Below, in pieces: positions 35,848 through 37,141 of a stretch of DNA of 64,000 nucleotides; position 1 is the first letter of the stretch, and each line of letters opens with the position of its first letter. Where the stretch lies: contig JAIQFS010000006.1 in NCBI GenBank assembly GCA_020073145.1, forward strand, positions 62,001 to 126,000, given 5' to 3'. A program made the translations under genes and the position numbers. The stretch is from Terriglobia bacterium. Its GTDB lineage: Bacteria; Acidobacteriota; Terriglobia; Bryobacterales; Bryobacteraceae. Under the pieces are notes generated by a model, which had not been told where the DNA came from, did not search any database, and saw nothing but the letters and a program-made list of their open reading frames with translations.

Positions 35848-35869
35848 TTTGTTCCGTTTTCGGAACAAA
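35848..35869. promoter_or_regulatory. operator-like perfect dyad between ubiX and the XRE/S24 regulator gene
   Basis: TTTGTTCCG-TTTT-CGGAACAAA is a perfect 9-bp inverted repeat with a 4-base centre. Its core recurs with one change at 36859-36874, before the peptide gene. It is 16 bases upstream of the predicted -35 of the regulator and 25 bases upstream of the ubiX start, so it could serve autoregulation and also the ubiX-pheA-lon operon. Confidence 0.6.
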
Positions 35870-35884
35870 ACCGGGTCATTTTCC

Positions 35885-35913
35885 TTGCTGCCGTTCAGCG
35901 GCGACGTTATAAT
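35885..35913 (+). promoter_or_regulatory. sigma-70-type promoter of the XRE/S24 regulator gene
   Basis: TTGCTG (35885-35890) and a perfect TATAAT (35908-35913) are separated by 17 bases. The leader to the ATG at 35972 would be about 50 bases and carries a GAGGAT ribosome site. Confidence 0.55.
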
Positions 35914-35971
35914 GCCCCTTCGCCCGCTCAAGACTTTTTCGCTGGGCCGGTAGCACAGCGAGGATCATAGC

Positions 35972-36781
35972 ATGGACCGCGCCGGAGAAAAGCTCAAACG
36001 GGTTCGCGAGCGTCTCAAGCTGACGTACCGCGATGTGGAGCAAGCCAGCCAGGATCTGGCTCGCCGTCACGCCAATGCCGAGTTTCTGGTGCCCTTGAGC
36101 CGCTTGGCCGATATCGAAAACAGCGGCAAGGTTCCCAGCGTATTCCGCCTGTACACGCTGTGCGCCATCTATCGCCTCGACTTGCAGGACGTTATGCGCT
36201 GGTATGGCGTGCCTGCCGAACAGCTGGCTACCGAGGCTTTTCGCATTGGACTTGATGAGACCCACCCGTTTCAAATCAACCTCAATCGCAGCGGGGTCGG
36301 CGCCGATCCCACGGAGAATGACTTCGACCTGAGCAAGACCACCTTCCTCAGCCAGCTGATCCGGCAGTGGGGAAGAGTCCCATTCAATTATCTCAATGGG
36401 CTAGACCTACGGAACCGGTACGGTTTAGTAGGTCTGGAAGATTGGTCCATGTATCCCATTCTTCGCCCGGGGTCGCTCGTGCTGATTGACGAGAACCGAC
36501 GCAAGATTGCGCGTGGAGGATGGACCGACGAGCACGACCGGCCCATCTATTTTCTGGAGCATCGTGGAGGATTTGCTTGCGGCTGGTGCAGCATCGAAGG
36601 GGACCGGTTGCTGATTCAACCCCACCCGGCTTCCGAGAAACAGCCGTCGCTGTTCCGGTTTCCAGAGGAGATCGATGTGGTCGGCCAAGTGATCGGAGTG
36701 GCGATGAGACTGGAATCCAATCAACGCCGCCTCGCTCGGCCGTCTGGAACCACTGCCAAACCAGTCCCTCCTGAGCGTTGA
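35972..36781 (+). CDS. XRE/S24-like transcriptional regulator
   Basis: 269 residues. The N-terminal 75 form a helix-turn-helix of the XRE type (KLKRVRERLKLTYRDVEQAS, then LSRLADIENSGKVPSVFRLY). The C-terminal 130 resemble the LexA/CI S24 fold: GLEDWSMYPILRPGSLVLID with the nucleophile-position Ser. The general-base Lys expected in a later strand is not seen; that strand is GGFACGWCSIEGDRLLIQ, with two Cys instead. It is therefore probably not self-cleaving and may sense a ligand or redox state. Shared operator-like dyads lie before it and before the next genes. Confidence 0.8.
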   Translation: MDRAGEKLKRVRERLKLTYRDVEQASQDLARRHANAEFLVPLSRLADIENSGKVPSVFRLYTLCAIYRLDLQDVMRWYGVPAEQLATEAFRIGLDETHPFQINLNRSGVGADPTENDFDLSKTTFLSQLIRQWGRVPFNYLNGLDLRNRYGLVGLEDWSMYPILRPGSLVLIDENRRKIARGGWTDEHDRPIYFLEHRGGFACGWCSIEGDRLLIQPHPASEKQPSLFRFPEEIDVVGQVIGVAMRLESNQRRLARPSGTTAKPVPPER

Positions 36782-36806
36782 GAATTCCCACACTCGACCT
36801 TCCCCT

Positions 36807-36861
36807 TAGGTCTACACCTAGGGAGGCCTCACCAACGTTCTAGCACTTCAGATCTAGGTGT
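36807..36861. repeat. TAGGT/ACCTA and ACACCTAG/CTAGGTGT inverted repeats upstream of the peptide gene
   Basis: A tight dyad TAGGT-CTAC-ACCTA lies at 36807-36820. ACACCTAG at 36814-36821 has a perfect inverted partner CTAGGTGT at 36854-36861, with centres 40 bp apart (about four helical turns). TAGGT appears again at 36911-36915. The right arm touches the operator-like dyad at 36859. Confidence 0.45.
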
Positions 36862-36874
36862 TCCGTTTTTGGAA
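36859..36874. promoter_or_regulatory. second copy of the operator-like dyad, before the peptide gene
   Basis: TGTTCCGTTTTTGGAA matches 15 of 16 bases of the site at 35850-35865. It lies 94 bases before the peptide ATG. The recurrence within 1 kb, outside coding sequence, suggests a binding site of the adjacent XRE/S24 regulator. Confidence 0.55.
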
Positions 36875-36903
36875 AATTTTCATCCGAGTTATCCCCTACT
36901 ACC

Positions 36904-36929
36904 GTACAGTTAGGTACAGTACAGTACTG
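36904..36929. repeat. GTACAGT triple repeat and CAGTACTG palindrome
   Basis: GTACAGT occurs at 36904, 36914 and 36919 (steps of 10 and 5 bases), ending in the palindrome CAGTACTG (36922-36929). The cluster is 40-60 bases before the peptide start, a usual place for a promoter or regulator site. Confidence 0.45.
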
Positions 36930-37087: not shown

Positions 37088-37141
37088 AAGAACTACTGAA
37101 TCCTGGCGGCGCCCGGTGCTAGAATCACCAACTTGGTGGGA

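Follow-up and report, generated by a model that had tools for sequence, protein, structure and literature searches.

Organization of the locus

The window, a 64,000-nucleotide stretch of a Terriglobia bacterium contig (JAIQFS010000006.1), contains a compact gene group consisting of the gene for a putative transcription regulator (REG), a short open reading frame for a peptide precursor, and genes for two predicted membrane proteins, MEM and O187, with a dyad element upstream of reg and a similar one upstream of the peptide gene (Table 1). The flanks of the locus are conserved, with ubiX, pheA and lon on one side and sprT and fabH on the other. REG, MEM and O187 are co-conserved at the locus with ADJ, an all-helical protein of ~150 aa encoded on the opposite strand between reg and the peptide gene in most relatives (e.g., L025:1119-1574); in the window, ADJ was not found at this usual place, between 36781 and 36858. 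The structural model of ADJ is all-helical (pLDDT 89), and no match was obtained for this protein in Pfam, NCBIfam, PDB sequences or PDB folds. Likewise, neither O187 nor MEM, a 7-TM-like protein with several membrane helices, matched a known family, and the 39-residue peptide gene had no family match in Pfam or NCBIfam.

Table 1. Coordinates of the locus features in the window, and loci of the AT-hook genes in relatives
Feature	Position or locus	Strand	Description
Dyad 1	35848..35869	.	TTTGTTCCG-TTTT-CGGAACAAA; putative operator of the reg promoter, kept upstream of reg in 80/80 relatives
Site 1 (16-mer)	35850-35865		TGTTCCGTTTTCGGAA
reg promoter (predicted)	35885..35913	+	-35 TTGCTG 35885-35890; -10 TATAAT 35908-35913
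REG, 269 aa	35972..36781	+	XRE HTH (about 1-90), LexA/CI-like C-domain (about 148-245), conserved CxWC
Dyad 2	36858..36877	.	GTGTTCCGTTTTTGGAAAAT; putative imperfect operator of the peptide promoter
Site 2 (16-mer)	36859-36874		TGTTCCGTTTTTGGAA
Peptide-promoter -10 (predicted)	36915..36920	+	TACAGT, 37 bp after dyad 2; no recognizable -35
Peptide precursor, 39 aa	36968..37087	+	MRRLMLLAVMAMAFLATA-RTYSSKVDGPLPECDPCPWVR; predicted signal peptide and PxPxCxPC core
MEM, about 260 aa	37142..37927	+	polytopic membrane protein; ATG 37142 likely start, mechanical ORF from TTG 37133
O187, 187 aa	38002..38565	+	membrane-anchored; conserved downstream of MEM
AT-hook genes with paired dyads	L238, L241, L254, L257 and about 30 other loci		

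The Pfam search with REG detected the HTH and a weak S24 domain and nothing else, and the closest solved relatives by sequence are the DdrO proteins, also a weak match. A model of the C-domain based on 70 homologs (mean pLDDT 84) matched the C-domains of LexA and lambda CI in the PDB (3k2z, E 6.8e-6; 1jhe, 2.1 Å over 90 columns). Across these homologs, position 159, that of the S24 catalytic Ser, is occupied by S in 35, T in 16, F in 7, M in 4, W in 3 and A in 3, and the S24 Lys position, assigned by eye against LexA, falls inside the conserved CxWC segment and holds Cys; the two cysteines of this segment are near-universal in the regulators (67/70 and 66/70). With Ser in just half of the homologs and the Lys position within CxWC, the C-domain appears to be a LexA fold that is not a protease, so that self-cleavage is not expected; judging from the model, it is more likely a dimerization and signal domain. 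Within residues 203-221 (36578-36634), an invariant His comes after the near-invariant CxWC, and the two may form a metal or redox site.

The dyads are conserved and track the regulator

The first-pass annotation, made from the letters of the window, had reported two sites around the regulator gene that match at 15 of 16 bases, both outside coding sequence and the first a perfect 9-bp dyad. The coordinates and the identity were reproduced. The longest mechanical frame of ubiX, from a TTG start, covers site 1, and the start indicated by ubiX homologs lies downstream of it, which places both sites between genes. Dyad 1, scored as a 20-mer (35849-35868), indeed consists of two perfect 9-bp arms around a 4-base center. 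Dyad 2 is imperfect, with one full and one degenerate arm, and its symmetry is limited to TTCC/GGAA.

Shuffling of the window gave 0.78 expected matches at up to three mismatches vs. the 2 observed, which by itself does not separate the sites from chance; the question was answered by scans of the genome and of other species. Over all 6.3 Mb of the genome, sites 1 and 2 are the sole exact matches to the 16-mer, with one more at one mismatch; the motif scan that the annotation had proposed as a check thus found no widespread occurrence. The one-mismatch copy (L003; G000:C21:85245) precedes a gene for an M16-like peptidase and could be there by chance. A scan of the same genome with the degenerate motif returned fewer matches than its reversed control, the best other match being again L003 at 14 bits, so that no further sites can be claimed in this genome.

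Orthologs of the regulator were identified in 100 of 151 relatives, nearly all with a dyad upstream of the start (20-bp consensus TTGTTCYGAATTCRGAACAA); overall, dyads accompany the regulator over ~150 loci. For a quantitative comparison we used a named set of 80 GTDB loci (Bryobacterales, Bryobacteraceae, Solibacteraceae, Terriglobia), which partially overlaps the first ortholog set, and called a dyad if it scored >15 bits within 350 bp upstream of the regulator. All 80 loci contain such a dyad, vs. none of 496 background windows taken from elsewhere in the same loci, and the comparison of sites in related genomes, also suggested at the first pass, thus came out clearly positive. At the peptide gene, 53 of 56 loci have a second dyad upstream, and 32 of 61 genomes contain exact matches to an 18-bp form of the motif (reversed control, 0/61). 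One genome, G018, has four further perfect dyads elsewhere (L231-L234), two of them near genes for response regulators, so that its regulon may be larger.

The dyad stays beside the regulator at loci where ubiX was not found (L019, L020, L062, L069, L072, L046) and is unmoved relative to the regulator where ubiX lies >200 bp away (L024, L026), which indicates that site 1 follows REG rather than ubiX. The initial suggestion that lon and pheA, along with ubiX, could be under the same regulator is not borne out by this distribution. In most genomes, site 1 is 25-30 bp from ubiX, and some effect on this gene may occur. The class of recognition segment in the regulator also predicts the motif: regulators with SRL[AS][DE]IE have the dyad upstream, save two in the set (L040, L051), and paralogs with HARLIQIE do not. 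Given that site 1 tracks REG and that the recognition segment predicts the motif, binding of REG to its own operators is the most straightforward interpretation. From the sequence comparisons, the two sites are very probably conserved operators through which REG controls its own gene and that of the peptide. The original proposal of a binding site of the regulator itself, with autoregulation, most likely holds, with the dyads tracking REG, the spacing to the promoter fixed and the recognition helix predictive of the motif.

Promoter geometry points to activation

In the window, 39 bp separate the end of dyad 1 from the predicted -10 element of reg, which puts the dyad center at about -61.5 if the first base of the -10 hexamer is taken, as usual, to be at -12. 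This gap is 39 or 40 bp in 55 of 65 relatives in the named set, where the reg promoters also have a recognizable TTGCC-like -35 element. At the peptide gene, a TAnnnT hexamer follows 36 or 37 bp past the second dyad in 46 of 53 relatives. A -35 element was sought in the peptide promoters and none was recognizable, with 31 of 48 matching at only two of six positions. At both promoters, the dyad stops short of the -35 position by about 13-17 bp and does not overlap the core promoter. A location near -61.5 is the one used by class I activators, CRP among them. Thus, the position of the dyads, together with a peptide promoter that has no -35 element and in this respect resembles an activator-dependent promoter, suggests that REG probably activates, rather than represses, at both the reg and the peptide promoters, although, with a 3-bp difference in the gap from dyad to -10, they need not share one activation geometry. 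MEM is preceded by a TAGAAT-like element (window 37110-37130) that several relatives share, and the membrane protein genes may have a promoter of their own here.

Most LexA/CI-type regulators repress transcription, and an unlikely but serious alternative assumes the same operators and peptide with REG as a repressor, so that sensing of a signal by the CI-like domain would release reg and the peptide gene, and perhaps ubiX as well. This alternative is a variant of the main model, and the probabilities of the two overlap. The paired operators around the AT-hook promoter described below look repressive as well, and the short distance between site 1 and ubiX in most genomes fits this scheme, but the free core promoters of reg and the peptide gene and the missing -35 element, as if an activator were needed, argue against repression at these two genes.

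A predicted secreted peptide with a species-specific core

The signal sequence of the peptide was judged by eye, with no predictor. The orthologs are mostly 34-75 aa long, with a signal-type N-terminus, and P-x-P-x-C-x-P-C is invariant in 35 aligned orthologs, a set picked partly by the C..C pattern, so that the prolines are more telling than the cysteines. The core occurs three times within a single precursor at some loci (L013, L064, L156) and twice at others (L016, L073, L138), and elsewhere, two to five peptide genes are arranged in tandem (L032/L131, L034, L059, L060, L068, L155, L164). Tandem copies show no nonsynonymous changes in the core vs. up to 8 synonymous ones, with leaders differing at up to 20 codons; the exception, L178, which has internal repeats, differs in the spacer. 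These patterns, along with a pN/pS of 0.34 between sister species, indicate that the gene is under selection as a protein. The core is the same within a genome and different between species, the pattern expected of a pheromone, and, on the strength of these alignments, of the repeats and of the REG-type site before the gene, the peptide is fairly likely to be a cell-cell signal.

Paralogous regulators (e.g., L041, L043, L044, L057) are convergent with operons encoding MEM-like and O187-like proteins, ADJ and a small secreted-type peptide, with the likeness to MEM and O187 judged by eye from layout and sequence. These modules thus consist of the same gene set, with repeat-bearing peptides before MEM. 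For instance, the L041 peptide contains the proline-rich core ADGTDPVPPPYPLAVPGK three times, and the repeated unit of the peptide following site 2 is WADGGSPVPPFPD or SADGSPLPPFPHAKP in a further family (L050, L056). Several peptides of related modules are free of cysteine (ADGTDPVPPPYP, WADGGSPVPPFPD, SADGSPLPPFPH). Disulfide exchange between the CxPC of the peptide and the CxWC of REG was considered and rejected, given these Cys-free peptides and the near-universal CxWC of the regulators.

Bacteriocin loci, too, typically combine small, repeated secreted peptides with a neighboring membrane protein and XRE/CI-like regulator, and divergence of the core between species would fit such a role as well. 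With the REG operators as proposed, the peptide would then be antimicrobial, MEM would confer immunity or export, and REG would switch production on or off. We consider this improbable: unlike mobile bacteriocin loci, this one occupies a single conserved chromosomal place and is common across the family, the mature peptides are very short, and the same dyad is also present at a nucleoid-type gene elsewhere. A role of the peptide in the envelope, redox- or metal-related through CxPC, under REG control in response to stress and not involving communication between cells, would account for the invariance of CxPC in the Bryobacteraceae peptides and for the conserved CxWC and His of the REG C-domain. 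The peptides of related modules are Cys-free even though their regulators nearly always keep CxWC, however, which makes this role still less probable. A pheromone remains the preferred reading of the peptide.

An AT-hook gene as a probable second target

The extra dyads in relatives are often found upstream of a gene whose small product is of the AT-hook type (MDVTKILAELRQEREQIEEAI-LERLARGRGKRRGRPP-); the genes on its two sides encode an amino-acid permease and a hydrolase of the beta-lactamase fold. Such dyads were found in 35 of 50 REG-bearing genomes, a fraction that is biased because some of the AT-hook loci were found through the dyad itself; mostly, there are two dyads, 81-87 bp apart, flanking the promoter. 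In the genus to which the window belongs, these dyads have been lost and the AT-hook promoter has none (the gene in this genome is at G000:C64:66163-66351). The spacing of ~84 bp, close to eight helical turns, would most simply be explained, by analogy, by CI-like cooperative looping and repression at the AT-hook gene. The first-pass annotation was most likely right about the sites of the regulator itself, and its suggestion about lon and pheA found no support; the AT-hook target and the pheromone-like precursor lay beyond its view.

Among six genomes in which REG was not found, the AT-hook dyads are missing in four and present in two (G021, G039), where assembly gaps could be the explanation. 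Those two genomes would fit a different factor binding the dyads, with REG a mere neighbor, but such a factor is very improbable given that site 1 tracks REG, not ubiX, in 80/80 loci and that the motif is missing at regulators with a different recognition helix.

Proposed mechanism and relation to known systems

The explanation that we favor as a whole, with some but not high confidence and from sequence evidence, combines an activator loop, an exported pheromone and control of the AT-hook gene. A REG dimer would bind dyads 1 and 2 and activate both promoters, thereby autoregulating and driving expression of the small precursor gene. Export of the precursor would use Sec, and cleavage would yield an extracellular pheromone, a PxPxCxPC peptide of about 12-20 residues that is specific to the species. 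The envelope proteins MEM and O187 would read this signal, or REG would do so after re-entry of the peptide, closing a positive loop. In relatives, the dyad pair about 84 bp apart around the promoter would control the AT-hook-type gene through CI-like looping and repression. The co-variation of distances with the peptide (0.25 for MEM, 0.17 for O187 and about 0 for REG and ADJ) did not single out a receptor, the value for the housekeeping control UbiX being as high (0.32).

PlcR- and Rgg-like members of the RRNPP group carry an XRE-type HTH, and so does REG. In the RRNPP quorum-sensing systems of Bacillota (Rap, Rgg, NprR, PlcR, PrgX), a secreted propeptide is encoded near a regulator of 250-500 aa (PMC10075063, PMC11343458), and in Rap-Phr systems, the pheromone unit is repeated within one propeptide (PMC11343458). 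Similarly, the 269-aa REG is encoded near a gene for a small propeptide with a predicted export signal, in most relatives with ADJ in between, and the predicted mature peptide is repeated inside the propeptide. Unlike RRNPP regulators, REG has no tetratricopeptide (TPR) receptor domain but a LexA/CI-like C-domain, is co-conserved with two membrane proteins and one helical protein, and occurs in Acidobacteriota. With LexA and lambda CI (S24 fold), REG shares the combination of an HTH with the same C-terminal fold, dyad operators and, in the paired operators, a spacing of about whole helical turns, but it differs in the absence of the conserved catalytic Ser/Lys and in the activator-type position of the dyad at reg and the peptide gene. 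A secreted peptide together with a polytopic membrane protein is reminiscent of agr and ComD/ComE; unlike in these systems, no histidine kinase, response regulator or AgrB peptidase was recognized in the locus (REG, MEM, O187).

Our search of the open-access literature found no peptide signaling system described for Acidobacteriota, and the locus, judging from its sequence features, appears to be a peptide communication system not described before, spanning Bryobacteraceae and Solibacteraceae. We see about an even prospect that it represents a new five-gene class of peptide signaling in Bryobacterales and other Terriglobia (Acidobacteriota), composed of an XRE/LexA-like pseudo-protease regulator, a repeat-bearing secreted peptide, a 7-TM-like protein, a membrane-anchored protein and a helical partner, with paralogous copies in the same genome bearing distinct peptides and a regulon reaching a nucleoid-type AT-hook gene. 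Acidobacteriota are among the commonest soil bacteria, and, if this assignment is correct, signal sequences would be defined for many species along with a regulator of known operator, providing a test bed for a LexA-like domain in signaling rather than self-cleavage. A minor-looking pair of DNA repeats can thus reveal a whole conserved locus, including a 39-residue gene.

The genome analyzed here also contains a second, paralogous module (L039; G000:C88:8500-15653) at a contig end, past which its peptide gene would fall; this module comprises REG2, ADJ2, an O187-like and a MEM-like protein.
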